DNA of 64,000 nt, from the IMG/VR virus record IMGVR_UViG_3300033571_022960, positions 62,001 to 126,000 of that record; one strand, given 5' to 3'. Positions 2,578 through 51,731 of the stretch are shown here, piece after piece (the first letter of the stretch is position 1; each line of letters begins with the position of its first letter). Origin of the DNA: a virus. The notes under the pieces were generated by a model. It was not told the origin of the DNA. It did not search any database and worked only from the letters and a program-made list of their open reading frames with translations. A program made the translations under genes and the position numbers.

Positions 2578-3294
2578 ATGAAAATACTACACATATCAGA
2601 CACACATGGATTTCATGAACAATTAACTGATAAATGGAATTGGGAAGAAATTGATTTGGTTATTCATTCAGGTGATGAATCAAATTCAATCGTTCCTGAA
2701 ATTAATTTCCATGAATCATTGAATTTTTTTAGTTGGTTTAAAGATTTACCTGTTAAAAACAAAATATTTATTGCAGGAAATCACTCAACTGCAATTGAAA
2801 AAAGACTAATTACTCCAGCAGATATTTTTTCTTATGGAATCATATATTTGGAAAATTCTTTAACCGAAGTTAATGGGATTAAAATATATGGTTCACCATA
2901 TACACCCACATTTGGTAATTGGTCTTTTATGAGAGCAAGACATAAATTGGATAAGTTATGGTCACAAATACCTGAAAATACTGATATTTTGGTTGTACAT
3001 GGTCCAGCAAAGGGTGTATTGGATTTATCTTGGTCTAAAGATGGTTATTTAGAATATTGTGGTTGTAAATCACTTTTTAATCATGTAAATAAAATTAAAC
3101 CAAAAATATTCCAATTTGGTCATATTCATGATGGTGAGGAAATTTATAATTATGGTTGTAAAAAACATAATGAAACTTTATTTATAAATTCTACACTTGT
3201 TAAAGATGGTCATTTTAATAAAGGATTAATACATTATGGTGTTTTAACAGAAATTGATGAAAATAAAAATGTAAAAATTTATGAAATTAAATAA
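2578..3294 (+). CDS. Calcineurin-like metallophosphoesterase
   Basis: The protein starts MKILHISDTHGFHE. The metal-binding signature follows in order: DTH (D-x-H), HSGDE (GD), AGNHS (GNH), VVHGPAKG and GHIHDG (GH-x-H). These are the motifs of the metallophosphoesterase superfamily (class III-like, about 240 aa). The substrate cannot be told. An upstream in-frame ATG at 2491 would lie inside nrdA and the terminator, so 2578 is preferred. The 3' end overlaps the next gene by 14 bp. Confidence 0.85.
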   Translation: MKILHISDTHGFHEQLTDKWNWEEIDLVIHSGDESNSIVPEINFHESLNFFSWFKDLPVKNKIFIAGNHSTAIEKRLITPADIFSYGIIYLENSLTEVNGIKIYGSPYTPTFGNWSFMRARHKLDKLWSQIPENTDILVVHGPAKGVLDLSWSKDGYLEYCGCKSLFNHVNKIKPKIFQFGHIHDGEEIYNYGCKKHNETLFINSTLVKDGHFNKGLIHYGVLTEIDENKNVKIYEIK

Positions 3295-3643
3295 AACCTT
3301 TAAAAACATTAAAAGGTGGAATGAAACAAAAATTAAACCTCTAACTTATATTAATTTTTACATAAATGAAAATTCCTTATATCAACAAGAATATTATAAA
3401 ATATTATGGTCTAACGATGATGTAATATTAATAAATCAGGGTTTTTATAGTTATTTGATGAGTTTAAAACAATGGAAAGGAACAAAAACAGGTAATTATA
3501 GATTTTGCAAATTTGATAAAATTAAATATATTATGTTTAATAATAAACACAATTTAGAAAATATAAAAGTTGGTGACTATGAAATAGATGATACACTTTT
3601 AGAAAAAATAAGAGAAGAAATTCACAAACCATATTATTTATGA
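3281..3643 (+). CDS. Divergent member of the NLKK small-protein family
   Basis: 120 aa, unknown function. The N-terminus MKLNKTFKNIKRWNET matches the first 12 residues of the family block (M-x-L-x-K-T-x-x-N-x-K) shared by about 15 other proteins here, but the FFN part is missing. The rest is rich in Tyr, Asn and Lys. It overlaps the phosphoesterase gene by 14 bp and the next gene by 4 bp (ATGA), suggesting translational coupling. Confidence 0.65.
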   Translation: MKLNKTFKNIKRWNETKIKPLTYINFYINENSLYQQEYYKILWSNDDVILINQGFYSYLMSLKQWKGTKTGNYRFCKFDKIKYIMFNNKHNLENIKVGDYEIDDTLLEKIREEIHKPYYL

Positions 3644-3861
3644 AATGTTATATTAATAATTATGAAAAATTTTTAAATAATTATAATTTTAAATCTAATG
3701 AATATTTAAATTTTAAAAAATTATGGTTAGAAAAAAATAATAAAATTTTTAATGAATTATATTCTGATATGATGAAAAATGGAAGAAACAGTTTTGATAA
3801 AAATTTAGAAATAGAAGAAATAATAAAAGAAACATTTTACTTAAAAAAATATTATGAATAA
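3640..3861 (+). CDS. Hypothetical protein
   Basis: 73 aa, no recognised family. The ATG overlaps the previous stop (ATGA) and the gene overlaps thyA by 8 bp, so it sits in a tightly coupled run. The composition (Asn, Lys, Phe, Tyr) is that of the AT-rich neighbours. Confidence 0.6.
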   Translation: MKCYINNYEKFLNNYNFKSNEYLNFKKLWLEKNNKIFNELYSDMMKNGRNSFDKNLEIEEIIKETFYLKKYYE

Positions 3862-4696
3862 GTCAGATTTATACTTTCAACAAAACCTAAAAAAAATATT
3901 GGATGAAGGTTGTTGGGATGAAAATCCAAGACCAAAATATAAAGATGGGGAACCTGCAAAATCTAAATATATAACTTGTGTTTATGAAGAATATGATTTT
4001 TCTAAGGGTGAGTATCCTATAACAACCTTACGTAATACCCCAATTAAAACTGGAATTAAAGAAATTTTTTGGATTTATCAAAAACAAACTTCTTCTTTGG
4101 AGGTTGCAGAAGAATTAGGTATTAATTGGTGGGATGAATGGAATATTGGTGATAATACAATTGGTATTCGTTATGGTGAAACTGTAAGAAAATATGATTT
4201 AATGAATAAACTTCTTATTGGTTTGGAAAAAGAACCTTTTTCAAGGAGACATATAATAAATTTATATCAATATTCTGATTTGGAAACTCCTGGTTTATAT
4301 CCTTGTGCATTTGAAACACTTTGGTCTGTTAGAAAAAAAGAAGGGGTTTATTATTTGGATTTAACTTTGATTCAAAGAAGTTCTGACTATTTGGTTGCGA
4401 ATTACATAAATAAAAACCAATATTTTTCATTACAAATGATGATTATTGGTCATTTAAGACATATAACAGGATTAAATTATCATTTAGGTAAATTTAATCA
4501 TTATGTCAATAATCTTCATGTTTATGATAGACATTTGAAATATATTGAAGAATTATTAAGTAGAGAAAGTTCAGAACAACCAAAAATAATTTTAAAAGAA
4601 AATAAAAACTTTTATGATTATAATTTGGGTGATTTTGATTTAATTGGTTTTGATAAAATTAAACCTTTAAGTGGTAAACTTGAACTTGCAATATAA
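3854..4696 (+). CDS. thyA: Thymidylate synthase
   Basis: Converts dUMP to dTMP with methylene-tetrahydrofolate. Family motifs seen: catalytic Cys151 in LYPCAFETLW, SRRHIINLYQYSD before it, QRSSD at about 174-178 (dUMP phosphate contact), an Asn in the NYINKNQY segment, and NLHVYDRH near the C-terminus. At 280 aa the length is normal. It is ThyA type, not ThyX. It follows the RNR genes and overlaps the small gene before it. Confidence 0.9.
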   Translation: MNKSDLYFQQNLKKILDEGCWDENPRPKYKDGEPAKSKYITCVYEEYDFSKGEYPITTLRNTPIKTGIKEIFWIYQKQTSSLEVAEELGINWWDEWNIGDNTIGIRYGETVRKYDLMNKLLIGLEKEPFSRRHIINLYQYSDLETPGLYPCAFETLWSVRKKEGVYYLDLTLIQRSSDYLVANYINKNQYFSLQMMIIGHLRHITGLNYHLGKFNHYVNNLHVYDRHLKYIEELLSRESSEQPKIILKENKNFYDYNLGDFDLIGFDKIKPLSGKLELAI

Positions 4697-4699
4697 TAT

Positions 4700-5509
4700 A
4701 TGGATATTATTAAAGAATATAAAAAGTTTTGTGAAGAAAATGGTATTGAATTTAATATAGAAAATAAGGTTAATCCTTATGATGATACCACTCTATTTTG
4801 TCCTGCTGGTATGCAAAAATATAAAAAAGAATTTAAAAATTGTGAATATAAAAATACAATTGCAAATGTTCAGTCATGTATAAGAATGAATGATTTTGAT
4901 GAAATTGGTGATGAAACTCATTTATTATATTTTAATATGATTGGTTTATTTTCATTTAGACAGATGACTATTGAAAATGCAATAGATTTTTTGGTTAATT
5001 TTTTAATAAGATTAAATATAAAACCCCATTATGTGACAATTCACTCCGATAAAAAAGAATGGTTAAATTATTATAAAAAATATAATATTGATGTAAGGTA
5101 TGATGATGAAAATTGTAAATGGTCTGATGGTGATATTGGTGGATATTGTACTGAATTTTTTATAAATAACATTGAAATAGGTAACATTGTTAATCCACTT
5201 GATAATTGTATTGACGTTGGTTTCGGATTGGAAAGATTGGAAATGATTGTTAATAATAAAAAAATTAATAAAATTGATTCATTAAAGGACTGTGCATTAA
5301 AAATAATAGAAAGTGGTTATAAACCATCAAACCTAAAACAAGGTTATGTATTAAGAAAAATATTAAGAGAAATTTATAAATTAGGTGGTAATTTAGAACA
5401 TCATTTTTTTATTGAAGAAATTGAAAGACAAGAAAAAATAATTGCAAAATATAATAAAATAAAGAATAAATACCAAAACAAATCAAAAGAATGGTGGTTT
5501 GATACATGA
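4700..5509 (+). CDS. Stand-alone alanyl-tRNA synthetase-like catalytic core
   Basis: 269 aa, compared with about 870 for bacterial AlaRS. Class II AlaRS motifs are seen in order: DDTTLFCPAGMQKYK (29-43; compare DPTLLFTNAGM), SCIRMNDFDEIGDETHLL and the LFSFRQM segment (59-89), KWSDGDIGGYC (140-150), and motif 3 DVGFGLERLEMIV (172-184). The tRNA-recognition, editing and oligomerisation domains are absent. It could charge a tRNA or minihelix, or be an aminoacyl-adenylate enzyme used elsewhere. It lies 3 bp after thyA. Confidence 0.75.
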   Translation: MDIIKEYKKFCEENGIEFNIENKVNPYDDTTLFCPAGMQKYKKEFKNCEYKNTIANVQSCIRMNDFDEIGDETHLLYFNMIGLFSFRQMTIENAIDFLVNFLIRLNIKPHYVTIHSDKKEWLNYYKKYNIDVRYDDENCKWSDGDIGGYCTEFFINNIEIGNIVNPLDNCIDVGFGLERLEMIVNNKKINKIDSLKDCALKIIESGYKPSNLKQGYVLRKILREIYKLGGNLEHHFFIEEIERQEKIIAKYNKIKNKYQNKSKEWWFDT

Positions 5510-5541
5510 AATTTGATTTTCTAAAAAAAATTTATTAAATT

Positions 5542-5775
5542 ATGAAAATAGAAATTGACAATACAAATATTAATTTAATTCCCTTTAAATTTAATAATAA
5601 TCATTTTGGTGATGCAGTTTTGGATGTTGATGGGTTTTATTATTTTGTTTTTAAAGATAAAGGTGGTTATTGGTCAGAATATTCATTAAAATTAATTTCA
5701 GAAAAATTAACCGAACTAAATAAAGGTTGGAATGATTATATAAAAGAAAATTATAAAAATGATAATAAAAACTGA
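5542..5775 (+). CDS. Hypothetical protein
   Basis: 77 aa, unknown. Upstream, TTTG (5512-5515) and TAAATTAT (5536-5543) have promoter spacing, but the -7 box overlaps the ATG, so the promoter is uncertain. The protein contains aromatic residues around FYYFVFKDKGGYWSEY. The 3' end overlaps the next gene by 17 bp. Confidence 0.6.
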   Translation: MKIEIDNTNINLIPFKFNNNHFGDAVLDVDGFYYFVFKDKGGYWSEYSLKLISEKLTELNKGWNDYIKENYKNDNKN

Positions 5776-10617: not shown

Positions 10618-10866
10618 ATGGCAAAATACAAAATAACAGAAAGACAATTAAATTTTGTTAGAGAAAACTTGAATATAAAATCTACTGTAAAACCAGAGGA
10701 TAGTGAAAATGTTAAAACACCCAATCCTGATTTTATGTCAACAAAAGATGTTGAAATAGAATTAAAAGAAGTTATTCAAAAAGTCATAAATAAATTTAAA
10801 TACATCCCTAAAATAGAAAAAGAAAATTTTAAAAAAGAATTAGATATTTTCCTTTCTAAATTTTAA
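10618..10866 (+). CDS. Small late protein with ITERQL N-terminal block
   Basis: 82 aa. The N-terminus MAKYKITERQLNFVRENL is shared with the proteins at 45888 and 49589 (minus). The block ends in V-R-E, which fits the (L/I/V)-x-E cleavage pattern of T4-type prohead proteases. The rest is a charged helix. A capsid-targeted internal protein is my inference. The late box 12 bp upstream agrees with it. Confidence 0.65.
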   Translation: MAKYKITERQLNFVRENLNIKSTVKPEDSENVKTPNPDFMSTKDVEIELKEVIQKVINKFKYIPKIEKENFKKELDIFLSKF

Positions 10867-10896: not shown

Positions 10897-11457
10897 ATGA
10901 AAATTGGGATTATTACTCAAAAGGAATTTAAATTATTTAATGAATACCCTTTACTATTTGAATATGGTGAATCCGATTACAATTTAATAATTGGTTATAA
11001 TCTGGCAAAAGAATTAAATAAAAACACCAGTTTTTTAAATAATAAAATAAATAATAATACTTACTGGGTTTGGAGTGATGAAGAAAAACCTACTGATTCA
11101 AAAAAATTAACAATTAATATAATAAAACTTATAATTGAAGAAATTATTAAGAATACAGAATATAAGGTGGTTGACCCAATCATTAATAAAATAACCAAAG
11201 AAAGTATAAAAAATTATTTCGCAAATAAAAATATAAACTACTACACCAAAATTGATAGAATGTTATTTCTTTATTATGAAAAGGAAATATTTGGTTTTGA
11301 TTTGGAAGTTTTTAAATGGATGGATTGGAATATAAAGGAATTAATTGATTTTAAACCGTTAAAACCTTTTTTAATTGATGATAAATATTTGGATTTATTT
11401 ACTGAAAAAAATAAAAAATATATACCAATTTTCTACAGTAGTTTAAATAGAAAATAA
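10897..11457 (+). CDS. Hypothetical protein
   Basis: 186 aa. The N-terminus (MKIGIITQKEFKLFNE) is loosely like the ITERQL-x-LFE block. The body contains YWVWSDEEKPTDSKKL and long helical Lys/Ile-rich parts. ATTATTTATATTT upstream resembles the late box. Its 3' end overlaps the convergent minus gene by 25 bp. Confidence 0.6.
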   Translation: MKIGIITQKEFKLFNEYPLLFEYGESDYNLIIGYNLAKELNKNTSFLNNKINNNTYWVWSDEEKPTDSKKLTINIIKLIIEEIIKNTEYKVVDPIINKITKESIKNYFANKNINYYTKIDRMLFLYYEKEIFGFDLEVFKWMDWNIKELIDFKPLKPFLIDDKYLDLFTEKNKKYIPIFYSSLNRK

Positions 11458-11783
11458 TTACCTGTATATAAACCACTATAATACTCTTCTAAATAAAATT
11501 TTAAATTAGATGGAATATGTATTGAATATAGTCCTTTTCTAGCACCATTGCCAACATAACACATTTTATAAAATAAAATAACCCTATTTTTACTTTTTAA
11601 AATATTAAAATCTTTTTTATTAATTTTTATACTTAAACCCAAATGACATTGCCCAAAACATTCTATTTCTGGATAAACATTTAAATTTTCTTTAAATAAA
11701 TCAATATCTAAAAAAGAGTTATTTACGTTAAAGAAACCGTTATTTGATTTTTGTAGATTAGTTATTGTTTTTTGCAAGTTCAT
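11433..11783 (-). CDS. NLKK family protein
   Basis: 116 aa. The N-terminus MNLQKTITNLQKSNNGFFN carries the family block, followed by FLDIDLFKENL. The C-terminal body is variable and unknown. Its first 26 bp overlap the end of the gene at 12111, the same arrangement as in the copy at 16872-17484. The first bases are identical to those at 17167. Confidence 0.7.
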   Translation of the reverse strand: MNLQKTITNLQKSNNGFFNVNNSFLDIDLFKENLNVYPEIECFGQCHLGLSIKINKKDFNILKSKNRVILFYKMCYVGNGARKGLYSIHIPSNLKFYLEEYYSGLYTGNYFLFKLL

Positions 11784-11812
11784 ATTCTCCGATAAAAAGT
11801 TGATAGGATAAA
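11744..11812. repeat. 69-bp exact inverted repeat, left copy
   Basis: These 69 bases are the exact reverse complement of 17138-17206. The repeat spans the junction of two overlapping NLKK genes: the C-terminal YQLFIGEYELAKNNN of one and the first residues of the next. The two copies are about 5.4 kb apart in inverted orientation, around the gp19 and Mom-like genes. Confidence 0.9.
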
Positions 11813-12111
11813 TTCATAATACCTGTATTTAATTTATTTTTAAAAAAATATAAAATTTCAGCATGTTGATTCACCCATCCTTCGGGTCTAATCACTTGTT
11901 CTACTTTTATTTGAATTTTATAACAACAAGAATTACCATTATCTTCTAAATTATTCCTATTTATTAGAAATACATTATATTCTCTATGTCCGTTTTTATA
12001 CTTATAAAGTAAATTAACTTTAAAAGTATCAAAATTAACAAAAAAATTTTCCATATTAAAAAAACCTGTTTTTGATTTTTTTAAATTATTTAATGTTTTT
12101 TGTAAGTTCAT
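11758..12111 (-). CDS. NLKK family protein, paralogue of the one at 16872
   Basis: 117 aa. The N-terminus MNLQKTLNNLKKSKTGFFN is followed by NFFVNFDTFKVNLLYKYK. Both ends (FFVNFDTFK near the start and SYQLFIGEYELAKNNN at the end) match the protein at 16872-17192, while the middle differs strongly. The start overlaps the gene at 12271 by 26 bp. Confidence 0.75.
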   Translation of the reverse strand: MNLQKTLNNLKKSKTGFFNMENFFVNFDTFKVNLLYKYKNGHREYNVFLINRNNLEDNGNSCCYKIQIKVEQVIRPEGWVNQHAEILYFFKNKLNTGIMNLSYQLFIGEYELAKNNN

Positions 12112-13216: not shown

Positions 13217-14224
13217 ATGCAAACTAATCAAACTAATCCTATAATGCCCTTTTTAGAAGAAGAATTCAAATCCTTCAACATAGAACCCTTTACAGAAGTA
13301 GAATTCAAACCAGATGAATATATTAAAGAAATAGAACAACAATTTCGTGATGGAATGACATGGGAAAATTATAATAAATTGTGGAAATTAATTTTTATTT
13401 TACCAAAAGAAACCTTCAATTTCAAAGATAATTTTTATAGAAGTTTAAAACAATATTTTTCAATAAATAATCTTTATCCAATATATATTGATGAAACAAT
13501 AGAATACCCAGAAAATTTCCATTCAACTTGTTACCAGTATAAAACAAGATTTCAATCACAATATAAAGAAAAAAATATAATTGATTTTAATCCAGATAAT
13601 GCAAATCTGAATAATACAATAATAAGGGAAATTTCTAAAAAAGAATGTACAAAGGTTGTTGAAAAATATGAATGGTTGGGTAAAATGAGTGGGTTTTCAA
13701 AATACCATTTTGGAATATATTTTTTAATTGATGGAAAAGAATATCTTGGTGGGGTTCTTGCATTTCAAAATGACTATGGTGAAAATACTGATGTATGGAA
13801 AAAGTATGACTTTAAAGGTGATATGATTTTATTAAGTAGAGGAGTTTGTTTATGGTGGACACCAAAGAATACTGCATCTTATTTTATATCGAAAACTTAT
13901 AAATGGTTTTTGGATAACACAAATTATAGAATTTTAACTGCAACTACTGATTCAAGTGCAGGTGAAAGTGGGGTAATTTATTCTGCATTAAATTGGTTGG
14001 GTCTTGATATGAATAAACAAAAAACAAGAACTTCTGTAATAATTGATGGTAAAGAATATTCTGGTCGTTATATGAGAAAAAAATATGGAACAATGAAGGA
14101 AAGTATTATAAAGGAAAAATTTCCTAATGCAAGATTTGTAAAAAGTCCAAGAAAAATTAGATATTTTTATTTTATTGGTAAAGATAAAAAGTATAATAAA
14201 ATGAAGTTATTAAGTTATTCGTAA
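13217..14224 (+). CDS. Mom-like DNA modification protein (GNAT fold)
   Basis: 335 aa. Residues about 155-270 match the Mom/GNAT pattern: KYHFGIYFLIDGKEYLGG, MILLSRGVCLWWTPKNTAS, YFISKTYKWF, then ATTDSSAGESGVIYSALNW. In phage Mu, Mom converts adenine to a carbamoylmethyl derivative that blocks restriction. The C-terminal part (SGRYMRKKYGTMKES) is typical of phage relatives. The N-terminal ~120 residues are extra. DNA modification against host restriction is the likely role, but activity is inferred. Confidence 0.7.
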   Translation: MQTNQTNPIMPFLEEEFKSFNIEPFTEVEFKPDEYIKEIEQQFRDGMTWENYNKLWKLIFILPKETFNFKDNFYRSLKQYFSINNLYPIYIDETIEYPENFHSTCYQYKTRFQSQYKEKNIIDFNPDNANLNNTIIREISKKECTKVVEKYEWLGKMSGFSKYHFGIYFLIDGKEYLGGVLAFQNDYGENTDVWKKYDFKGDMILLSRGVCLWWTPKNTASYFISKTYKWFLDNTNYRILTATTDSSAGESGVIYSALNWLGLDMNKQKTRTSVIIDGKEYSGRYMRKKYGTMKESIIKEKFPNARFVKSPRKIRYFYFIGKDKKYNKMKLLSYS

Positions 14225-14505
14225 TATAAACAATAATCTAATAAAGAATCATCTGATAAAAGAATGTTTTTAAAACAATAAACATCACTAAAAAAATCTA
14301 TTTCTATAATCAGATTAAGTTGGTTATGTTTAAAACCTGCACTGTTAATAAAAAATTCTTCTCTAAGTTCAAATGAATCATAATATTTTAAAACTGTATC
14401 ATTCCTTAATAAATCAAAATTAATCCATATTCTACCTTTATTTTGCAAATTAAAGAAAAAATTATGTGATTTCTTTAAATTTATTAATGTTTTTTGTAAC
14501 TTCAT
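14215..14505 (-). CDS. NLKK family protein
   Basis: 96 aa. MKLQKTLINLKKSHNFFFN, then WINFDLLRND. Last gene of a five-gene minus-strand run (15689 to 14215) in which four members carry the family block. Overlaps its neighbour by 4 bp. Confidence 0.7.
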   Translation of the reverse strand: MKLQKTLINLKKSHNFFFNLQNKGRIWINFDLLRNDTVLKYYDSFELREEFFINSAGFKHNQLNLIIEIDFFSDVYCFKNILLSDDSLLDYCLYYE

Positions 14506-15115: not shown

Positions 15116-15373
15116 TTAATGAAAATAAAAGAAATAAATTAAAGTTTTAGATGGTTTTATATTTGGAATTTGATTTCTAAAAACAAATTTACCATCAAAT
15201 TCTTTGTTAATTTTTATATTTTTTAAACCAGTAGAATCATAAGTAGTAGGTATTATTGATTTTAATTCCATACCAATTTTCAATAAATCATGGTTAACCC
15301 AAACATCTTTAGGAATATTAAAGAAAGAATTATTTGATTTTTCTAAATTTATTAATGTTTTATTTAATTTCAT
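15116..15373 (-). CDS. NLKK family protein
   Basis: 85 aa. MKLNKTLINLEKSNNSFFN, then VWVNHDLLKIG. I take the ATG at 15373, because the family block begins there and overlaps the previous stop by 14 bp. A longer frame to 15463 would add residues unlike any family member. Confidence 0.7.
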   Translation of the reverse strand: MKLNKTLINLEKSNNSFFNIPKDVWVNHDLLKIGMELKSIIPTTYDSTGLKNIKINKEFDGKFVFRNQIPNIKPSKTLIYFFYFH

Positions 15374-16148: not shown

Positions 16149-16356
16149 AAAAAAATATAATACAAATTTTTATCCTAAAGTTGGTGATAAATATTTTAAT
16201 GGTGAAAAAATATTTATTAAAGGTGTAGGTGTTAGACTTAAAAAGTCAAGATTTTATGATGAGTGTTATATTGTTTTTGATAAAAATTATTTTATTGCAA
16301 AGGATGGGAAAGGTAACTGGATTAATGGAAAATTAACAAAAAAACCTTTAATGTGA
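16138..16356 (+). CDS. Hypothetical protein
   Basis: 72 aa starting MLIEKKYNTNFYPKVGDKYF, beta-rich. ATG 16138 is preferred to the in-frame TTG 16132. Overlaps the next gene by 4 bp. Confidence 0.55.
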   Translation: MLIEKKYNTNFYPKVGDKYFNGEKIFIKGVGVRLKKSRFYDECYIVFDKNYFIAKDGKGNWINGKLTKKPLM

Positions 16357-16862
16357 AAACAAGAATAATCAATCTTTTTGGGGGTCCAAATTGTGGAAAA
16401 TCAACAATTGCATCGGGATTATTTTATAATCTTAAAATTCTTGATATTAATTCAGAACTTATATCAGAATATGCAAAAATTAAGGTTTGGGAAGGAAATG
16501 AAAAAACCTTAAAAAATCAAATATATTTGTTTGCAAAACAACATTTTGCAATTCATAATGTATTGGGTTTGGTTGATTTTGTCATAATGGATTCCCCACT
16601 ACTTTTAAATCCGATATACGATAAACAACAATGTGAAATCTTTAAAACACTTTGTTTATCAGAACATAATAAATTAAATAATATTAATTTCTTTATTAAA
16701 AGAAATGATAAAACTTTTCAGGAAATTGGAAGAATTCATAATTTAAAACAATCAGAAGTTTTGGATAAACAAATAAAAGATTTTCTTGAAAACAATCAAA
16801 TTGATTACTATGAAGTAACAAATCTTGAGGAAATACTTGAAAAATTAAAAAATTTTCTTTAA
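16353..16862 (+). CDS. P-loop NTPase, AAA_28/kinase-like
   Basis: 169 aa from a GTG start overlapping the previous stop. Walker A is GGPNCGKST (residues 10-18) and a Walker-B-like strand is VDFVIMDSPLL. The order LFYNLKILDINSELISEYAK after the P-loop and a later RNDKTFQEIGRIHN segment match a family common in T4-like phages and related to NadR-type nucleoside kinases. The phosphate acceptor cannot be told. Confidence 0.7.
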   Translation: MKTRIINLFGGPNCGKSTIASGLFYNLKILDINSELISEYAKIKVWEGNEKTLKNQIYLFAKQHFAIHNVLGLVDFVIMDSPLLLNPIYDKQQCEIFKTLCLSEHNKLNNINFFIKRNDKTFQEIGRIHNLKQSEVLDKQIKDFLENNQIDYYEVTNLEEILEKLKNFL

Positions 16863-16871: not shown

Positions 16872-17192
16872 ATGGATTTGGAAAAAACATTAAATAATTT
16901 AAAAAAATCAAAAACAGGTTTTTTTAATATGGATAATTTTTTTGTTAATTTTGATACTTTTAAACTTAACTTACTTTATAGATATAAAATATACGGTAGA
17001 GAATATTTTAACATAATATCTCAAAACGTGAATTTAGAATATGGTGGTGAGTCATGTTATAGATTTACACAAGAACTTGTACATGAAAGACATGTTTTAT
17101 ATATTTTTAAAAATAAATTTTTCAAAGAAACAATGACTTTATCCTATCAACTTTTTATCGGAGAATATGAACTTGCAAAAAACAATAACTAA
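16872..17192 (+). CDS. NLKK family protein, paralogue of the one at 12111
   Basis: 106 aa. MDLEKTLNNLKKSKTGFFN, then NFFVNFDTFKLNLLYRYK. Ends conserved with the 12111-11758 gene, middle divergent. The last 26 bp overlap the next family member. Confidence 0.75.
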   Translation: MDLEKTLNNLKKSKTGFFNMDNFFVNFDTFKLNLLYRYKIYGREYFNIISQNVNLEYGGESCYRFTQELVHERHVLYIFKNKFFKETMTLSYQLFIGEYELAKNNN

Positions 17193-17206
17193 TCTACAAA
17201 AATCAA
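17138..17206. repeat. 69-bp exact inverted repeat, right copy
   Basis: Exact reverse complement of 11744-11812, across the junction of the two overlapping NLKK genes. Confidence 0.9.
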
Positions 17207-17484
17207 GATATTCTTTTTTTAATATAAATGAAGAAGTCTGGGTTAATCTTGATTTATTTAAACGAGATTGTAAATATAGATTTTATTTGGATGTCAATAA
17301 AATAGAGTATAGTGAATGTAAAATTGATAATACTAATAATTTAATTGAAAGTTTTTATGGTACTGTTTTATATAAAAAAATGGATGATTATCCATTAACA
17401 CATATTTACATTTCTAAAAATAAAATTGATTATGATTTTATGAGAAAACATGGTTTAGATTATTTTTTAGTGTTAGGGAAATAA
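17167..17484 (+). CDS. NLKK family protein
   Basis: 105 aa. MNLQKTITNLQKSRYSFFN, then VWVNLDLFKRD. The first 13 residues equal those of the 11783-11433 protein; the rest is unrelated by eye, so the cassette was duplicated and the bodies then diverged or were exchanged. Confidence 0.7.
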   Translation: MNLQKTITNLQKSRYSFFNINEEVWVNLDLFKRDCKYRFYLDVNKIEYSECKIDNTNNLIESFYGTVLYKKMDDYPLTHIYISKNKIDYDFMRKHGLDYFLVLGK

Positions 17485-25030: not shown

Positions 25031-25585
25031 ATGATAAACAAAGAAAAATTAAAAGATATTGCATTGAATGCAATTAAAACTAAAGATTTTCATAAACTTA
25101 GATATATAGGTCAAACAATTGATTGTTTGTTGTTTGAACCTGAATATTCAGATGATGAACAATTATATATTTTATTTACAAAAATTAGTAAATTATTAAA
25201 TAATAATGATTTTGATTTATTACACAAATTAGAAGTTACAAATTATCCTGATTTGGATGAAATAGGTTTCCCTAAATGTGAAACTTTTGATAATTTAAAT
25301 GAAATATTCATTGTTGAGATGCGTAATAAAAAAGGTGAAACTGTCCCCTGTTGTTTCGTTTCTGATTCTATGGAAAAGGTTAAAAAATGGATGAAAGAAA
25401 ATACTGATTTTTCATACGGTTTTTGGTATTGGGCAATATTAAAAGGACAAGTTAATGGTTTAGGTTTTAATTTATATAAAGTTTATGATAAAAATGGTAA
25501 TCTATTAGATGAAGAACCAATCCAAAAAAGTTTCTTTGAAAAATTATTAATAAATATTTTTACAAATAAAACTGAAATACTTTGA
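25031..25585 (+). CDS. Hypothetical protein
   Basis: 184 aa. N-terminal half helical and acidic; C-terminal half beta-rich with FIVEMRNKKGETVPCCFVS and DFSYGFWYWAILKGQVNG. The stop overlaps the TTG start of the next gene. Unknown function. Confidence 0.6.
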   Translation: MINKEKLKDIALNAIKTKDFHKLRYIGQTIDCLLFEPEYSDDEQLYILFTKISKLLNNNDFDLLHKLEVTNYPDLDEIGFPKCETFDNLNEIFIVEMRNKKGETVPCCFVSDSMEKVKKWMKENTDFSYGFWYWAILKGQVNGLGFNLYKVYDKNGNLLDEEPIQKSFFEKLLINIFTNKTEIL

Positions 25586-25917
25586 ATTTAAAAAATACTT
25601 TAGAAAATCTTAAAAAATCAAAAAATAGTTTTTTTAATACCACTAGTGGTATGGTAGTTTGGTTTGATATATATAAGGAAAATTTAGAGGTGTATAGTGA
25701 AGGTGCATTTATTTTTAAGTTAAAAGACACTAAAGAAATCAATAAACATTTTATTGATTGGAATTTTAAATATGGTGATAATGATTTTAAAGAATCTAAA
25801 ATGATACCAACAATAATCTTCAATTTTTACATTGAAACCCCTTCATATAATATTCCGTTTCATAGAAATAGTTTTAAATATCTTAGAAAAAAAGATTTTT
25901 TAATTAGAATCAAATGA
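25582..25917 (+). CDS. NLKK family protein
   Basis: 111 aa from a TTG start: (M)NLKNTLENLKKSKNSFFN, then VWFDIYKENL. The TTG replaces the ATG of other members and overlaps the previous stop (TTGA). The variable body ends YLRKKDFLIRIK. Confidence 0.7.
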   Translation: MNLKNTLENLKKSKNSFFNTTSGMVVWFDIYKENLEVYSEGAFIFKLKDTKEINKHFIDWNFKYGDNDFKESKMIPTIIFNFYIETPSYNIPFHRNSFKYLRKKDFLIRIK

Positions 25918-26462
25918 TAATTAGTTTAGGTCACAGAAGGAGAGTTGGTAAAAATGAAGGTGCAAACTTTCTTTTACACTATATTAATGAACAATATAAA
26001 GGTACTGTTGAAATAATTTCTTTTGCAGATAAAGTTAAGGATATGTCATTTGATTTATATGGTCATTATGGATTAAAAGAAAAAGAATTCTATGAGAAAA
26101 ATCCACAATTTCGTGAACAACCTTTGCCAATAATAAACAAATCCCCAAGAGAAATTTGGATTGAATTCGGAAACAAAAATCGTGAAATTCATTCAAATGT
26201 GTGGGTTGATTGGGTAAAAAATAAAATCCCTAATTATGATAATGTTATTATTCCTGATTTAAGGTTTGAAAATGAGGGTAATATGATTCATGAAATGGGT
26301 GGTGTTTGTGTACGTATTGATAATCCAAGAATTCCACATTCAAATGATGTATCTGATTGTGCATTGGAAAATTGGAATGGGTGGGATTTTATTATTGACA
26401 ATAATGGAACATTGGAAGAATTTTATCAGAAATTAATTTATGTTTATAAAAAATTGAAGTGA
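25914..26462 (+). CDS. Deoxynucleoside monophosphate kinase (T4 gp1-like)
   Basis: 182 aa. Starts MIISLGHRRRVGKNEGANFL, an altered P-loop (GHRRRVGKNE) known from phage dNMP kinases. SFADKVKDM and SPREIWIEFGNKNREI with VWVDWV follow, then VIIPDLRFENEGN. It phosphorylates dNMPs, including modified ones in T4, and fits the nrdA/thyA pathway. Confidence 0.8.
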   Translation: MIISLGHRRRVGKNEGANFLLHYINEQYKGTVEIISFADKVKDMSFDLYGHYGLKEKEFYEKNPQFREQPLPIINKSPREIWIEFGNKNREIHSNVWVDWVKNKIPNYDNVIIPDLRFENEGNMIHEMGGVCVRIDNPRIPHSNDVSDCALENWNGWDFIIDNNGTLEEFYQKLIYVYKKLK

Positions 26463-28298: not shown

Positions 28299-28502
28299 AT
28301 GAAAACATTAGATTTTGAAGAACTTTTAACCAAAGTTCCTGACTTAAAAGAAAAGATTGGGGAAAATGGTTTTAATGATGTTAAAAATTCACAACCACAT
28401 TATAAATGTTTGGGTAAATGTGAAAGAGAATTTATTTCTGAAACCAAAGAAGAAACAAATATAATGTTTTGTTTTTCTTGTCAAAGAATAATGGAAGTAT
28501 GA
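28299..28502 (+). CDS. Small zinc-ribbon-like protein
   Basis: 67 aa. C-x3-C (CLGKC) and C-x2-C (CFSC) about 20 residues apart could bind one zinc. N-terminus MKTLDFEELLTKVPDLKEK is helical. Overlaps the next NLKK gene by 4 bp. Confidence 0.6.
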   Translation: MKTLDFEELLTKVPDLKEKIGENGFNDVKNSQPHYKCLGKCEREFISETKEETNIMFCFSCQRIMEV

Positions 28503-28837
28503 CATTAAATAAAACATTAATAAATTTAAAATATTCAAAAAACAGTTTTTTCAATTTAGAAAAAATTAAAGACGTATATATTAATATAGATTTGTTTAAA
28601 GAAAATGTTGCATTTAAATTATATACTCTCTATGGGTATGGTCGGTCTTTTGAGAATTATAAAGAAAATAGGTTTATAAATAAAAATAAATTCATTTATT
28701 ATAAATATTACCATCAAAAACCTGTTAGGGGTATTATTTATTATTACCAATCTAAAACGAACTATTTTCATATTATTACTAATTTAGAAGAATACAATGA
28801 ATTATATACTAATAAAAGTTTATTAATTTTAAGATAA
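28499..28837 (+). CDS. NLKK family protein
   Basis: 112 aa. MTLNKTLINLKYSKNSFFN, then VYINIDLFKENV. Start 28499 is set by the family block and the ATGA overlap. Tyr-rich variable body. Confidence 0.7.
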   Translation: MTLNKTLINLKYSKNSFFNLEKIKDVYINIDLFKENVAFKLYTLYGYGRSFENYKENRFINKNKFIYYKYYHQKPVRGIIYYYQSKTNYFHIITNLEEYNELYTNKSLLILR

Positions 28838-39916: not shown

Positions 39917-40527
39917 ATTTTTTTAATTTCATAATAAAATGAATCTGTATTTTCAGAGACCCATTTATCTGAAATATTTTCAACAGAAATTAACTTATCG
40001 TCAACTTTTATATCTTTTAATTCCATTGGAAATTTGTTTGTTATGAAATTTGAATCTTTCCAAAAAATTCTATTATTTGGTTGACATAATAAATAACCAT
40101 CATCTGCAACTATTATATGTCCACATTTGTAATCTGTTGGTTCATCTGAATAAGGATTGTTAAACCAATCAACAGTCATAAGGTAAGTTCCCCAAACCTT
40201 TGTCTTATCCTTTAAAACCACTTCACAACGTTTTTCTTTTAAATAATTATATTTTATAACTGCAACATTTTCTGAAAAACAATTCCATAATTGTTTAAAA
40301 TCTGCAGAAATATCTTTTTTTGGTATTGATAAAAATATTTCAGAAATTGGAACTCTTGAACGCAACATTCCATAATCAGTCATTATGTGGAATGTTAAAA
40401 TTTTATCAGAACAGGATTGTATCCCAAATGCAATCGAATTATCAAATCTATTATTATCTTCACTTTTTTTAGTAAAATGTGAACGTCTGACTAAACATTT
40501 GAAACTATCTATATTTTGATTTAACAT
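39913..40527 (-). CDS. Conserved hypothetical next to the prohead protease
   Basis: 204 aa. Beta-rich, with DYGMLRSRVPISEIFLSIP and KVWGTYLMTVDWFNNPY and GYLLCQPNNRIFWKDSNF. Its start overlaps the protease stop by 1 bp, so it is co-expressed with the protease. A head or assembly role is plausible. Confidence 0.6.
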   Translation of the reverse strand: MLNQNIDSFKCLVRRSHFTKKSEDNNRFDNSIAFGIQSCSDKILTFHIMTDYGMLRSRVPISEIFLSIPKKDISADFKQLWNCFSENVAVIKYNYLKEKRCEVVLKDKTKVWGTYLMTVDWFNNPYSDEPTDYKCGHIIVADDGYLLCQPNNRIFWKDSNFITNKFPMELKDIKVDDKLISVENISDKWVSENTDSFYYEIKKI

Positions 40528-41228
40528 CAGAAATTCATAAATCTTTTTAAAGATTCCAATCTTTTATCCATTATTTTTTGTTCCTTATCCTCATTCTCAA
40601 TCCAAAGTTTGTTTGCAACATCCATATCTGTAAACATATAAGAACCTGGTGTTGATGGTTGTGATACAATATCCCAACAAACCAATTCAAAATCACTTTG
40701 TACAACATTTTTTCCACCTTCTTTCTTTAAAGAACCCACACCTCTTGATGATACTCCAATTAAAACATTCCTTCTAAGAAGATTTGCAATATGGTCACCA
40801 GCACAAGAAACTATACCAGATTTAACAAAACCTGGAGAAGTTAGAATTTCTAATTTACCAATTAAGGTTTTTCCTTTCCAAAAAGTTTCAACAATTATGT
40901 GTGAAGTGTCATTGGTTTTAAGAGATATCTCTGAACTGTCCGGGTGGTTTGCTTCCCCTAGTGAACTTCTTGTTTTAATTAAACTCTGATACCTTTCATT
41001 TTCTCTATAAAGAATTTGTTTTGGGTACCATCTACCATTTTTATTTTCTGTATCATATTTCTGTAATACTGCATAAACATAAAGAGGGTCATTAATAATT
41101 CCACCTTCTTTATTTATTTCCAATTTATGAATTTCATTTAATAACCCTTCATTATCTTCTTTAATGATATAACCATCGTTCTCAATCAACATACCATAAC
41201 CTATTTCATCTTTTTGAAGTATTTTCAT
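40527..41228 (-). CDS. Prohead core protease (T4 gp21-like)
   Basis: 233 aa. The catalytic His95 lies in LGEANHPDS and the Ser in LIGVSSRGVGSL (160/161), the S78/U9 pattern. NGRWYPKQIL and FELVCWDIVSQPSTPGSYM are family landmarks. It cleaves capsid and core proteins after (I/L)-x-E. The predicted I-x-E site in the capsid protein (residue 60) fits. Confidence 0.9.
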   Translation of the reverse strand: MKILQKDEIGYGMLIENDGYIIKEDNEGLLNEIHKLEINKEGGIINDPLYVYAVLQKYDTENKNGRWYPKQILYRENERYQSLIKTRSSLGEANHPDSSEISLKTNDTSHIIVETFWKGKTLIGKLEILTSPGFVKSGIVSCAGDHIANLLRRNVLIGVSSRGVGSLKKEGGKNVVQSDFELVCWDIVSQPSTPGSYMFTDMDVANKLWIENEDKEQKIMDKRLESLKRFMNF

Positions 41229-45648: not shown

Positions 45649-45891
45649 ATGGAAAAAAAAATTGTTTTAGTTCATTGGAAAGATATTGAATCAAATTCTA
45701 ATTCTTGGCAAACTATTGATGAGGCAATAGAATTTCATGAAGAAATGACTGTAATAGAACAATTGGGTTTTATTGTTTTTGAGGATAATGAATCCTTAAT
45801 TTTAACCGATTCTTGGTGTGAAAAATTGGGTTTAATTGGAAATTCTACAAGAATAACCAAATGCAATATATTAAAAATAACCTATCTATGA
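45649..45891 (+). CDS. Hypothetical protein
   Basis: 80 aa starting MEKKIVLVHWKDIESNSNS. It has an IDEAIEFHEEMTVIEQLGF segment with VGF-like strands, and NSTRITKCNILKI near the end. Resembles small phage proteins of unknown role. Overlaps the next ATG by 4 bp. Confidence 0.6.
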   Translation: MEKKIVLVHWKDIESNSNSWQTIDEAIEFHEEMTVIEQLGFIVFEDNESLILTDSWCEKLGLIGNSTRITKCNILKITYL

Positions 45892-47165
45892 AATTTCTAA
45901 TAACTGAAAGACAATTAAAACTTTTTGAAAATGTGTATAAAGAAAAGGAATTGGTATATATTAAAACTTTTTTTGATGAAAATTTTTCGGGTGAAAAAAA
46001 TTATTCAAGTGAAATAATAAAAAAACATTTTGGTACATTTTTAAGAATTCAATTTAATAAAACATTAATAGATGTATGGAATAATGGAAGTAGTTATTAT
46101 ATTGCAGTTTTTATTGATAGGAAAAAATATAATAAGTATTTTAAAACAATTGATGAAATGTTTGATTTTATTAAAAAAGAAAAATTAAATGAGGGTTTGA
46201 ATTTAAAATCTAGAGCAAATGACCAAGAAAAACAAAGAGAGGAATATATAAATCAAATATTATCAAAAGGAATAGAAAATTTAAATAATTCAGATTTTGC
46301 AACTCTTTATAAGTTAGATGGTGAAAAAAAATTATTTACAAAATTACAAGATAAATTAAATGAAAACGAAATTGAATCAGAACTTGTTGGATTAACAGTA
46401 CATGGTATATCTCTTTTTATTGATGAAACCTTTTATTTAAAATTATTTGGTGATAAATTAAAGTTGTGGTTAAAAAGACCATTACAAAACTCTGATTTAA
46501 ATGATAGATTTTATGATATAACATTTACTCATGATATAAAACAAGATGGAATGTATTTAAACTTCTATAACACAAACGATTTATTTGCTGTTTTAGGTAT
46601 ATTAAAAGATTATATTATTAAAGAAAATCTGAATTTAAAATCTCGTGCAGGTCAACAAGAAAAACAATCAATAGAATATTTCACAAAAAAAGTAAAAGAA
46701 GGTGATGTAATAGAAGGAATGAGTTATAGTGGATATAATAAATTACCTGATGAAATAAAAACAATTAATATTAAAAATATTAACAATAAAATGAAATATG
46801 CAGATAATGATTATGATGAAGATTATCTTTACTACTTAGGTCATAAAGACCCATATAAAACATTAATAAAAAATAATTTGATTAATGTTTTAAAGGATAG
46901 AGAATTATTATTTAAAATTTGTGATAATTTTTACTGGTCAGATGGTAGTAATGGAATAATTAATTTTGATAATTTAAATCATTTCATAAATGATATAGGG
47001 TATAAGGTTTTTGAATATAATCCAGAATATTTCTTTAAAAATGATTTAAATGGAATTAAAAAAAGAATACTTTATGCCCATGCATCTTCATCAGAACCAA
47101 AAGATTTTATTAAAGAAAGATACAAAGATTTTAAATATAATCCAAATGATGAATTTAGTTGGTGA
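45888..47165 (+). CDS. Late protein with ITERQL start and two SRA-QEKQ blocks
   Basis: 425 aa from ATG 45888 (MKFLITERQLKLFENVYKE). The N-terminal block is shared with the proteins at 10618 and 49589 and ends in L-F-E. LNLKSRANDQEKQREEYIN (about 106-124) and LNLKSRAGQQEKQSIEYFT (about 249-267) repeat the block seen twice in the 7664 protein; DNA around 46200 is identical to that at 7672 over about 27 bp. The segments between look like separate small domains. Probably virion-associated. Confidence 0.65.
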   Translation: MKFLITERQLKLFENVYKEKELVYIKTFFDENFSGEKNYSSEIIKKHFGTFLRIQFNKTLIDVWNNGSSYYIAVFIDRKKYNKYFKTIDEMFDFIKKEKLNEGLNLKSRANDQEKQREEYINQILSKGIENLNNSDFATLYKLDGEKKLFTKLQDKLNENEIESELVGLTVHGISLFIDETFYLKLFGDKLKLWLKRPLQNSDLNDRFYDITFTHDIKQDGMYLNFYNTNDLFAVLGILKDYIIKENLNLKSRAGQQEKQSIEYFTKKVKEGDVIEGMSYSGYNKLPDEIKTINIKNINNKMKYADNDYDEDYLYYLGHKDPYKTLIKNNLINVLKDRELLFKICDNFYWSDGSNGIINFDNLNHFINDIGYKVFEYNPEYFFKNDLNGIKKRILYAHASSSEPKDFIKERYKDFKYNPNDEFSW

Positions 47166-47629: not shown

Positions 47630-49221
47630 TGTTTCAAGAAATTATCAGAGAATTGATTCAAGAAGGTAGGTTGGATTTTTTGATTGAGAAATCCAATATG
47701 GATTATTATGACCTTTGGATTTGCATTAAAACTGACCCAACTTCAATTGTTAATCCTGCAAATGAAAGTAATATAGATTTTAATAATGGTGATGAAAAAT
47801 TGATACAATTTATAAGGGAAAATGTAAAAAAGGTTGGTGAATATACTAATTGGATTATTAGAAATTTCAATAAATTAAATTCTAATGAACAATATAGGTT
47901 CAGAATAGAGGATTTTGCAGAAGTTAATGAAAATCTATTATTTTTTCATAAATACAAAAATAAATTACCTTTAAAGTGGAATAAATATGAAAGAAATTTA
48001 AGTCAATCACCTCAATATTATAATTTGAGAGATATTAATAGTTATGGTACAATTAGTAATCCAGATGGTTTTTATGATTTATATTTAATACTTAAAGAAT
48101 TTAAAATTACAGAATTACCACTTAAAGACCCAGCAGAATTAAAAAAAGAAATAAAAACCGTTTTTGATAATGAATTTTGGGGTGTCTATGTTCCACTTTC
48201 AAAAGAAAGTTCATGTTCATTAGGTAGTGGAACAAGATGGTGTACTGCAAGTAGAGGTGATTATAACCGATTCCAATATTATTCAGAACAAGGTGAATTA
48301 ATTATAATATTTGATAAGAAAAATAATGAGAAATATCAATTTCATTTGGAAAGTGAACAATTTATGGATAAAGATGATAACCAAATTGATTTAGTTAGTT
48401 TTTTAAATGAAAATCCTGATTTAAGTAAAGTATTAAATGATTATATTGAAAAGTCTGAAAATTATAATGATAATGAAAAATTTAATTTCTTTTTAAAATC
48501 TGGTAATGAGTTTAAATTAATGAATTTATGGGATAAATCAACAGATAAAAATATTTTTCATAATACAATAATTTATGTTTATTTGCAAAAACATAAAAAA
48601 ATAACTGATGAAGAATTAAATAAATTCAAAAAAGAAGATTCAATTTATTTTCACGGTGGTAAATATTATCTTCGTTTTGAAGATTGGTGTGATGATAATT
48701 TAATTGATTTATTTAAAGAAGGAAGAAATACTGATTGGAGATATGGTGCAAAGAAAATATTATGTCATGAAATGTATGATTGGTTTGACCACTTTGATAA
48801 TATATCAATAAATGATATTAAATTAAATGATAAAACAGAAGAAGAAATAAGAAAACATTATAATTTGGATAAGAATGTTAATTTGTTGGAATTTATTGAA
48901 GGAAATGAAGAACTATATGATATTATTAATCGTGCAAGTAATGATGCCTATGAAAGTGGAACATCAAATGAATATTGGGAAACTGTTGTTAATTCTTTAA
49001 CAAGTGAGTTTGGTCAATATGAATATATTGATAATAATGTTTGTTTTCCAATATCAATTTATGAAGATTGTGATTGGGATGAATTGGTTAAAGGTGAGAG
49101 TTTACTTTATTCTGTAAATCAGAAAAAAGATGGTTTGACTTATAAAGATTTAGATTACGTTAGTGGTTATGATATGGAAGTTTTTTATGATTCAATTATT
49201 GAACAATTGGGGGAACTTTAA
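47629..49221 (+). CDS. Large late protein with SGTRWCTA motif
   Basis: 530 aa. Starts MFQEIIRELIQEGRLDFLI. The central part WGVYVPLSKESSCSLGSGT, RWCTAS, then GELIIIFDKKNNEKYQFHL is a pattern I recall in large phage proteins (P-L-x-x-x-S-C-x-L-G-x-x-T-x-WCTA). The long C-terminal half is acidic, with charged helices. The ATG overlaps the previous stop. Possibly an internal or injected protein; no enzyme activity can be assigned. Confidence 0.6.
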   Translation: MFQEIIRELIQEGRLDFLIEKSNMDYYDLWICIKTDPTSIVNPANESNIDFNNGDEKLIQFIRENVKKVGEYTNWIIRNFNKLNSNEQYRFRIEDFAEVNENLLFFHKYKNKLPLKWNKYERNLSQSPQYYNLRDINSYGTISNPDGFYDLYLILKEFKITELPLKDPAELKKEIKTVFDNEFWGVYVPLSKESSCSLGSGTRWCTASRGDYNRFQYYSEQGELIIIFDKKNNEKYQFHLESEQFMDKDDNQIDLVSFLNENPDLSKVLNDYIEKSENYNDNEKFNFFLKSGNEFKLMNLWDKSTDKNIFHNTIIYVYLQKHKKITDEELNKFKKEDSIYFHGGKYYLRFEDWCDDNLIDLFKEGRNTDWRYGAKKILCHEMYDWFDHFDNISINDIKLNDKTEEEIRKHYNLDKNVNLLEFIEGNEELYDIINRASNDAYESGTSNEYWETVVNSLTSEFGQYEYIDNNVCFPISIYEDCDWDELVKGESLLYSVNQKKDGLTYKDLDYVSGYDMEVFYDSIIEQLGEL

Positions 49222-49589
49222 TATTGATTAAAAAATTCTTTTTTGACCACCCAAATAGATTTACCATCACTTTCTGCATCAGTTGAAATGTACTGCAAAG
49301 TATCAGCGTATGATTGTGGTGTTTCCATATTAATCCATATAACCATTTCAACGGTATTACCTTCTTTAATCCACTTTGCAGCATCATCAAAATATTTATT
49401 CCACAATTCTTTTGCTTCATCAATTGTTCCTGAACCAAAATGTCCTGTTCCCCTTCCATCCATCATAACAATTGTATCTGAAACATAAGGTTTATTTATA
49501 TCCAATTCATCACCCTTATGAAAAGTTAAATCATTATAGGATTCAAATAATAAATCCAATTGTTTTTCAGTTAAAATATATCTCACCAT
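49218..49589 (-). CDS. Late protein with ILTEKQL N-terminal block
   Basis: 123 aa. MVRYILTEKQLDLLFESYN is the third clear example of the block, ending in L-F-E. The rest (DTIVMMDGRGTGHFGSGT, MVIWINMETPQSYADTLQY) is a compact alpha/beta domain, not recognised. Converges with 49221 by 4 bp. Confidence 0.6.
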   Translation of the reverse strand: MVRYILTEKQLDLLFESYNDLTFHKGDELDINKPYVSDTIVMMDGRGTGHFGSGTIDEAKELWNKYFDDAAKWIKEGNTVEMVIWINMETPQSYADTLQYISTDAESDGKSIWVVKKEFFNQY

Positions 49590-49633
49590 TATAATTATTT
49601 GATATTTTCGTTTTTTTTTCTTATCTTTATCGT

Positions 49634-49942
49634 ATGGTACTTGAAAATACTTTGGATAATTTAAGAAAAAAACGTTTTTTTAATCTGGTTGGTAAGAAAG
49701 TTTTGGTTAATCTTGATACTTATTTTGCAAATGGTAAAATTGTTAAATTTGATAAAGGTATTGGTTATGCAAACCAAACTGGTGAAAATAAGGAAAGTTT
49801 TTTAATTTCATTTGATAAAAATAAAATTGATGATAAGGGTTTATATATTTGGTTAAATTATAATGAAAATGGTAATTACATAGGTAATGGTTATTGTCGT
49901 TATTTTACCGAAAATCAAATAAATTTTAATGAATTTAAATAA
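49634..49942 (+). CDS. NLKK family protein, shortened block
   Basis: 102 aa. MVLENTLDNLRKKRFFN, with two residues fewer before FFN, then VLVNLDTYFANG. First of five family members between 49.6 and 51.7 kb; overlaps the next by 14 bp. Confidence 0.7.
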   Translation: MVLENTLDNLRKKRFFNLVGKKVLVNLDTYFANGKIVKFDKGIGYANQTGENKESFLISFDKNKIDDKGLYIWLNYNENGNYIGNGYCRYFTENQINFNEFK

Positions 49943-50186
49943 AACAATAGAAAATTTAAGAAATTCAAAGTCAAGATTTTTTAATCTTGGTGAAGTTATA
50001 CTGACAGAAGATTTGGTTAAAATAGGGATTATTTTTAGAAGAAGTCCTGATTATGAACAATGTGAAATTATTAAAAATGATGGAAAATATATTGATTCAT
50101 TTTTCAAATACAAAAATGAATTTTTGGAAGTTAGATATTCATATCCAAAAAATCAATTATACAAATACAAAATAAAATTTAAATGA
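49929..50186 (+). CDS. NLKK family protein
   Basis: 85 aa. MNLNKTIENLRNSKSRFFN, then ILTEDLVKIGI. ATGA overlap with the phosphatase gene. Confidence 0.7.
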   Translation: MNLNKTIENLRNSKSRFFNLGEVILTEDLVKIGIIFRRSPDYEQCEIIKNDGKYIDSFFKYKNEFLEVRYSYPKNQLYKYKIKFK

Positions 50187-50845: not shown

Positions 50846-50846
50846 A

Positions 50847-51107
50847 ATGAAAATTAACAAAACATTAAATAATTTAAAAAAATCAAAAAACGGTTTCTTC
50901 AACGTAAGTGGTAGGAGAAGTATTACATTTGATATATTAAAAAATGAATTAATATTTTATTTTAAATCACCTTATGGTGTTTATCGAATTTACTTTAATA
51001 AAAATTCACTACAATCAATAGGAAGGGATTATTTCACATACAATAATTGGTTGTTAAATATTAAAGATTATTATAATAATGATTATTATGTTCCTTATAT
51101 AAAATGA
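50847..51107 (+). CDS. NLKK family protein
   Basis: 86 aa. MKINKTLNNLKKSKNGFFN, then SITFDILKNEL. 1 bp after the phosphatase. Confidence 0.7.
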   Translation: MKINKTLNNLKKSKNGFFNVSGRRSITFDILKNELIFYFKSPYGVYRIYFNKNSLQSIGRDYFTYNNWLLNIKDYYNNDYYVPYIK

Positions 51108-51134
51108 ATAGAAAGAAATAAAATTTTATAAAAA

Positions 51135-51437
51135 ATGAATTTAAATAAAACAATAAAAAATTTAAGAAAATCAAATAAATCCTTTTTTAATATTACTTAT
51201 AAGTGTTATATAAATTTGGATTTATTAAAAGAAGGAATTGAATTTTATTTTAAGGTGGAATATAAAAAATTTAAATACACATATAAAAAGTGTGGAATAC
51301 GTGAATTATATCTAATACGTGAATTATATCTAACCCATTCTTTTTATTTGGTTAATAAATATGGTCATTATTATCCTTATGTGTATAAAAATGAAATTTT
51401 TAAAAATAACAAAAATTTTTACATGTTTTTAATTTAA
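51135..51437 (+). CDS. NLKK family protein
   Basis: 100 aa. MNLNKTIKNLRKSNKSFFN, then CYINLDLLKEGIEFYF. The end contains LVNKYGHYYPYVYKNEI, similar to the next gene's LVNKYGDYYPY region. A short tandem duplication repeats LYLIRE. Confidence 0.7.
   Translation: MNLNKTIKNLRKSNKSFFNITYKCYINLDLLKEGIEFYFKVEYKKFKYTYKKCGIRELYLIRELYLTHSFYLVNKYGHYYPYVYKNEIFKNNKNFYMFLI
51299..51333 (+). repeat. Tandem duplication in an NLKK gene
   Basis: CGTGAATTATATCTAA occurs twice in tandem with an 18-bp period (in frame), repeating about six residues. Shows recent change in the variable body. Confidence 0.8.
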
Positions 51438-51443
51438 AATAAA

Positions 51444-51731
51444 ATGAAACTGAATAAAACAATAGAAAATTTAAGAAATTCAAATAAATCCTTTTTTAAT
51501 TTGAAAAAAGGGGATGTTATTAATTTTGATTTATTGAAATCTGAAATAAAATTTTATATGAATATAGATAAGATTGTTTATAATTGGAAAAAAGAAAAAT
51601 TATTAAGATATGTTAGTGATAGATTTTCTTGTTACTACACAGTTAATAAATATGGTGATTATTATCCTTATGTTCAAATAAATGAATTAATAATGATTGA
51701 AGAAATTTTTTTTATGAGATTAGTTAAATAA
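51444..51731 (+). CDS. NLKK family protein
   Basis: 95 aa. MKLNKTIENLRNSNKSFFN, then VINFDLLKSEIKFYM. Its C-terminal half resembles that of the preceding gene (TVNKYGDYYPYVQINEL), one of the few cases where bodies are clearly related. Confidence 0.7.
   Translation: MKLNKTIENLRNSNKSFFNLKKGDVINFDLLKSEIKFYMNIDKIVYNWKKEKLLRYVSDRFSCYYTVNKYGDYYPYVQINELIMIEEIFFMRLVK

Follow-up and report, generated by a model that had tools for sequence, protein, structure and literature searches.

Gene family and genomic setting

The window analyzed here, a 64,000-nucleotide stretch of phage DNA (bases 62001-126000 of the 133,435-bp virus record IMGVR_UViG_3300033571_022960; contig G000), carries a family of small genes whose products begin with a common N-terminal block. 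All 16 gene starts listed by an earlier sequence-only reading exist as ORFs, and the overlapping arrays on both strands that it described were borne out by the ORF positions. The block that it had assigned to every gene is present in full in 15 of the 16, while the product of the gene at 3281 matches over about 13 residues only and was classed as a weak member. The genes are as follows.

3281-3643, plus strand: weak member; only MKLNKTFKNIKRW (first 13 residues) matches; overlapped at its start by the end of ORF 2491-3294
11433-11783, minus strand: member 11783, 116 aa; begins within the 3' end of member 12111
11758-12111, minus strand: member 12111, 117 aa; recent duplicate of 16872
14215-14505, minus strand: member 14505, 96 aa
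14502-14834, minus strand: member 14834, 110 aa; variant block ...KQTKDYPFG, with R5 and PFG
15116-15373, minus strand: member 15373, 85 aa
15360-15689, minus strand: member 15689, 109 aa; PFN variant
16872-17192, plus strand: member 16872, 106 aa; recent duplicate of 12111, inverted
17167-17484, plus strand: member 17167, 105 aa; same DNA as 11783 in the first 13 codons, body unalignable
25582-25917, plus strand: member 25582, 111 aa; begins with TTG, which overlaps the stop codon upstream; N5
28499-28837, plus strand: member 28499, 112 aa; ATGA overlap with the upstream ORF
49634-49942, plus strand: member 49634, 102 aa; block shortened by a two-residue deletion
49929-50186, plus strand: member 49929, 85 aa; overlapped at its start by the end of 49634
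50847-51107, plus strand: member 50847, 86 aa; I3 variant
51135-51437, plus strand: member 51135, 100 aa; duplicate of 51444
51444-51731, plus strand: member 51444, 95 aa; duplicate of 51135

Across the whole phage genome, the family comprises about 20 clear and about five weak members. Besides the 15 clear members in the window, three lie elsewhere on the same contig (20829 and 20036 on the minus strand, 57782 on the plus strand) and two on another record. The five weak members, which share the first 10-20 residues only, are 3281, two further genes on the 133-kb contig, and two on the other genome half. The complete proteins span 81-117 aa (mean 100, sd 11), and the block is not borne by any large or recognizable domain. 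Members are found among early-type and also structural genes, and in many cases the start overlaps the preceding gene's stop codon. A promoter scan of the array at 49.4-51.9 kb yielded matches at chance level.

The DNA pattern of the block also picked up a partner record, G001, of 173,457 bp. The two records dovetail over 6,904 bp with one mismatch (G000:126532-133435 versus G001:166554-173457), and their opposite ends overlap by about 43 bp; they are most simply read as a single circular or circularly permuted phage genome of approximately 299.9 kb that was split into two records. The gene content, including a gp23-type capsid protein and a tail tube protein, marks a T4-like phage, with one further feature of that kind in the window:

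40527-41228: S77 prohead protease (PF03420, E=6e-21)

Because the best matches of the capsid protein, alongside uncultured huge phages, include Rhodothermus phage RM378 and Flavobacterium immuto phages, the host is likely a member of the Bacteroidota.

The conserved N-terminal block

The similarity among the N-termini was strong by every measure applied. A leave-in HMM of residues 1-34 recovered 15 members with E values from 5e-19 to 8.5e-12 when all 1,662 stop-to-stop frames on the 133-kb contig were searched, and a degenerate DNA pattern of the block matched exactly 12 times in the window, where 0.00 matches were expected by chance. The weak member at 3281 scored E=0.19 with the HMM and was aligned by hhalign over 13 columns (residues 1-13). 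N-terminal pairs passed a BLOSUM threshold in 157 of 190 cases, a threshold that shuffled sets passed at most once, and a chance origin of the similarity is excluded. Pairwise comparison of residues 1-34 among 20 members against shuffled sequences gave a mean z of 8.5, with z above 3 in 188 of the 190 pairs, and on this evidence these residues are homologous. With 18 genes, the block cluster was by far the largest group with like N-termini among the 410 genes of the genome.

Similarity is strong over residues 1-20 and fades gradually over residues 20-34. Among the 19 members that lack the two-residue deletion, M1, T6, N9, and F18 are invariant (the TTG of 25582 being counted as M), and L3, K5, L/I7, L/I10, S13, F17, and N19 are nearly so; the helical part is followed by FFN and then by a V/I-N-x-D-L-x-K segment. 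Structure prediction for two members, using family alignments, returned a mean pLDDT of 55 for both, rising to near 80 over residues 1-10, and both low-confidence models placed a helix over residues 3-12, with strands making up most of what follows. The description of this segment as a basic helix stood in part: the conserved positions L3, K5, T6, I/L7, N9, L10, and S13 lie on one broad face of the modeled helix, and that face is a mixture of hydrophobic and polar residues, leading into F17-F18-N19. Such a face would suit packing on the body of the protein or binding to a common partner. Since the bodies are all small and no large or recognizable domain carries the block, it could form the opening helix of a single small domain and not a tag that can be detached.

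Variable bodies and their proposed exchange

The regions behind the block behaved very differently from the block itself. Comparison of the bodies with shuffled sequences gave a mean z of 0.48, with z above 3 in five of 190 pairs, the top pairs being two recent duplicates, 12111/16872 and 51135/51444. Leave-one-out HMMs of the bodies failed to recognize the held-out body (mean rank 0.43 among shuffled sequences and 0.42 among other small ORFs). The impression gained by eye that the bodies are mostly unrelated was thus upheld by both tests, and the slightly positive mean z leaves room for distant homology among them. Within the two duplicate pairs, body divergence is alignable and rich in indels, with conserved C-terminal pieces. 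The body dN/dS in these pairs was about 0.6 and 0.4, both below 1, giving no sign of positive selection on the bodies.

At the DNA level, in-register identity among members was 0.37 upstream of the ATG, 0.73-0.75 over codons 1-10, and 0.68 beyond codon 10, then fell to 0.60 over codons 16-20 and to 0.36 afterwards; similarity therefore sets in at the ATG and drops after codon 19. Two inverted gene pairs, 12111/11783 and 16872/17167, share a perfect repeat across the gene junction, after which the bodies are unalignable:

11744-11812, minus strand: 69-nt segment running from the end of one member through codon 13 of the next; exactly equal to 17138-17206
17138-17206, plus strand: 69-nt segment exactly equal to 11744-11812 (minus strand); identity stops abruptly past codon 13

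In the duplicates 12111 and 16872, the block DNA is near-identical over about 110 nt and the bodies have diverged with indels, with dN 0.37 and dS 0.58 in the body versus dN 0.05 and dS 0.21 in the block.

A close relative, contig L098, which is 80-90% identical in DNA over the replication genes, offered a comparison at an orthologous locus. L098 has a member in the corresponding position, behind the DnaB-type helicase gene, in which 12 of the first 20 residues agree with those of the window phage; the orthologous bodies match at nine of 58 positions (z=0.15), no better than shuffled sequences. In this comparison, which covers one relative and six core or neighboring proteins, identity was 92% for SSB, 85% for a 5'-3' exonuclease/RNaseH-like protein, 74% for RecA, 67% for a 178-aa protein, 62% for a coiled-coil protein, and 41% for a small membrane protein. 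The low value for the small membrane gene, a neighbor of the member, indicates that the locus as a whole evolves quickly. A second, weaker L098 member sits cleanly between two genes that directly overlap in G000.

Because identical or near-identical block DNA lies beside unalignable or diverged bodies and the body at the orthologous locus is replaced or unrecognizable, these comparisons show that recombination, very fast divergence, or both alter the bodies and leave the block in place. Change or replacement of the bodies is much faster than change in the genes around them. The proposal of a constant module joined to variable bodies, put forward from the sequence alone, gained in substance as far as this division goes, through the pairwise tests, the held-out HMMs, and the L098 comparison. 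The docking or targeting tag and the effectors against host defenses that it also suggested stay conjectural.

Distribution of the family

Database searches placed the family within a narrow lineage. None of the ten members scanned matched a Pfam domain, members had no match in the PDB, and PHROGs yielded no convincing or consistent match; two matches of single proteins near 7e-4 (12111 and 3281) were set aside, since neither tblastn nor the sister of 12111 supported them. When four members were searched by tblastn against 50,697 phage records, the outcome was no match or one at E=6. Pattern scans of IMG/VR located true members only in the window phage and in L098; the records of the window phage with the block, besides the window's own, are of 173 kb and 82 kb. 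The remaining matches of the DNA patterns, one of them wider than the other, were unrelated proteins. No member was present in 28 records with a related SSB gene, one of 297.6 kb and many of them fragments; a lone weak match (L169, E=0.01), which came from the 297.6-kb record, was rejected on reading. Three annotated or huge T4-like records likewise had no member, an empty answer that is not evidence by itself. The open-access literature contained no description of the family that we could find, and the statement that no described family has this form holds for Pfam, PHROGs, and PDB. Judged from these searches and alignments, the family is genuine and lineage-restricted, with a constant front and a variable body; support is good for this anatomy and for a mosaic mode of evolution.

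Comparison with known systems and alternative explanations

Several known systems combine a constant N-terminus with a variable remainder. The Bro-N/KilA-N multigene families of phages and viruses have a constant N-terminal DNA-binding domain and a variable C-terminus. The present family resembles them in being a multigene family of this architecture, but it has no Pfam match to such a domain and its constant part is far shorter. In polymorphic toxins and CDI systems, a constant N-terminal trafficking part is combined with an exchanged C-terminal part. The likeness extends to a constant front, an exchangeable rear, and diversity generated by recombination (PMC3482391). Unlike those toxins, the window family consists of single proteins of about 100 aa without a large carrier region, a known toxin domain, or a paired immunity gene: the ten members scanned contained no Pfam domain of secretion, trafficking, or any other kind, and each gene either stands alone or forms an array with other members.

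The family could instead be one small single-fold domain whose core is the helix and the FFN turn, the rest having diverged by substitutions and indels, without body exchange and without a role of the block as a tag. The narrow length range, the lack of any member on a large domain, the gradual fading of similarity over residues 20-34, the alignable, indel-rich bodies of the two recent duplicates with their conserved C-terminal pieces, the helix followed mostly by strands in both low-confidence models, and the slightly positive mean body z are all consistent with it. Such a domain would not be expected to leave 69 nt of identical and about 110 nt of near-identical DNA beside unalignable or diverged bodies; moreover, the 69-nt repeat extends upstream of the second gene's ATG, for which constraint on the block cannot account, and held-out bodies were not recognized. 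We regard this explanation as possible, though doubtful. A nucleic-acid reason for keeping the block, such as an element for translation or mRNA regulation, or a site of recombination, with the peptide incidental, appears improbable. In its favor, TCA encodes Ser13 in 17 of 17 members but makes up 41% of serine codons, synonymous identity within the block is 0.75 versus 0.61 expected, and starts often overlap the upstream stop codon; yet conservation does not reach upstream of the ATG, where it begins, the synonymous sites of positions 3, 10, and 17 vary near or above the expected rate while T6, N9, and F18 are invariant as amino acids, and shared recent ancestry could account for the TCA. The block is conserved for the most part at the protein level. 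Mutation of the bodies by a diversity-generating retroelement, which would likewise leave a constant N-terminus and a variable remainder, can be virtually dismissed: neither genome half encodes a reverse transcriptase (PF00078), and the bodies differ by indels and wholesale unrelatedness rather than by adenine-specific substitutions.

A further parallel lies in T4, where a capsid-targeting tag of about 10 residues forms the N-terminus of diverged internal proteins and is cleaved after [LI]xE (PMC9026906); one of these proteins, IPI, blocks a restriction enzyme (PMC9026906). By analogy, the block could be a capsid-targeting sequence that directs small variable cargo into the prohead for ejection into the host. 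With its S77 prohead protease and gp23-type capsid protein, the window phage is T4-like, and like IPI, IPII, and IPIII, its family presents a short conserved N-terminus on several small diverged proteins that turn over fast between relatives (PMC9026906). However, [LI]xE occurs within residues 1-19 in none of the 20 members (INE and LGE start at residue 20 in two), although such sites are present in the same phage's capsid protein (IKEA and INEA) and in an adjacent acidic scaffold-like protein (IEEA and LLEA). The block is also longer than the T4 tag (about 20 strong residues, fading to 34), is found on about 20 proteins scattered genome-wide, and occurs among early-type genes as well as structural ones. 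Other N-termini of the same phage, on larger and diverse proteins, carry [LI]xE: the clusters MxxxEILKELIEEN and MKYIITEKQLxLIE fit the pattern of capsid-targeting sequences and would suit the T4 role better than the block does. We give the capsid-targeting explanation a low probability.

The second of these clusters is a shared N-terminus in its own right (MKYIITEKQLxLIExLxLKSRAxDQEKQREEY), borne by diverse, often larger proteins, with shorter versions in the window. MKYIITEKQL-type N-termini were located at:

window 45861-47165, 10618-10866, and 49218-49589
G000:17180-18073, 16192-16404, and 4236-4688
G001:72012-72977

Proposed role of the family

The explanation that we favor, to which we would give a little less than an even chance, is a lineage-specific, recombining family of small accessory proteins. 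In such a family, the block would pack against the body or a common partner through the face K5-N9-S13-T6-L10-L3-I7 and would also provide the shared homology for exchange between paralogues, and the bodies would differ in what they bind, the most likely targets being systems of the host or of rival phages. Differing targets of this kind would explain the fast turnover, the presence or absence of genes, and the scatter among accessory genes; together with the small size, these traits would fit proteins of host take-over or counter-defense. A more specific form, which we consider unlikely, holds that the helix-FFN block is both a docking module for a common partner and a homology segment swapping bodies among about 20 loci, amounting to a small-inhibitor cassette system undescribed in phages.

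Should the bodies prove to be inhibitors directed at hosts or rivals, a profile of about 20 residues would find every member in new genomes of the lineage, whatever its body, and the members so found would be ready candidates for anti-defense screens. A large phage would then be creating diversity among small effectors through exchange at a constant N-terminal segment, a route that differs both from retroelement-driven variation and from capsid-targeting tags.

Other features of the phage genome

Several further genes were noted near the members and on related contigs. A Mom-like DNA-modification protein (PF25680, E=3.5e-20; window 13217-14224) is flanked by family members. The second half of the genome encodes a compact CRISPR-Cas locus (L065:364-5872) with Cas3 (best match Cas3fv), a Cas7fv-like protein, an unassigned protein in the Cas5 position, and Cas6b. 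Its array has eight to nine repeats of 36 nt with a spacing of about 66 nt, and two family members lie directly downstream; shortly past them is a TnpB-like C-terminal zinc-ribbon fragment (PF07282, L065:7670-8071). Putative proteins at window 4700-5509 and 26459-27619 resemble, by eye, parts of alanyl-/arginyl-tRNA synthetases, the latter with a HIGH-like motif, also by eye, and the scanned stretches of the window's contig contained one tRNA gene only (Met, 60241-60315). In L098, the DnaB-type helicase (L098:6580-8736) bears an apparent intein at its ATP-binding loop, which the copy in the window phage (G000:56366-57751) lacks.
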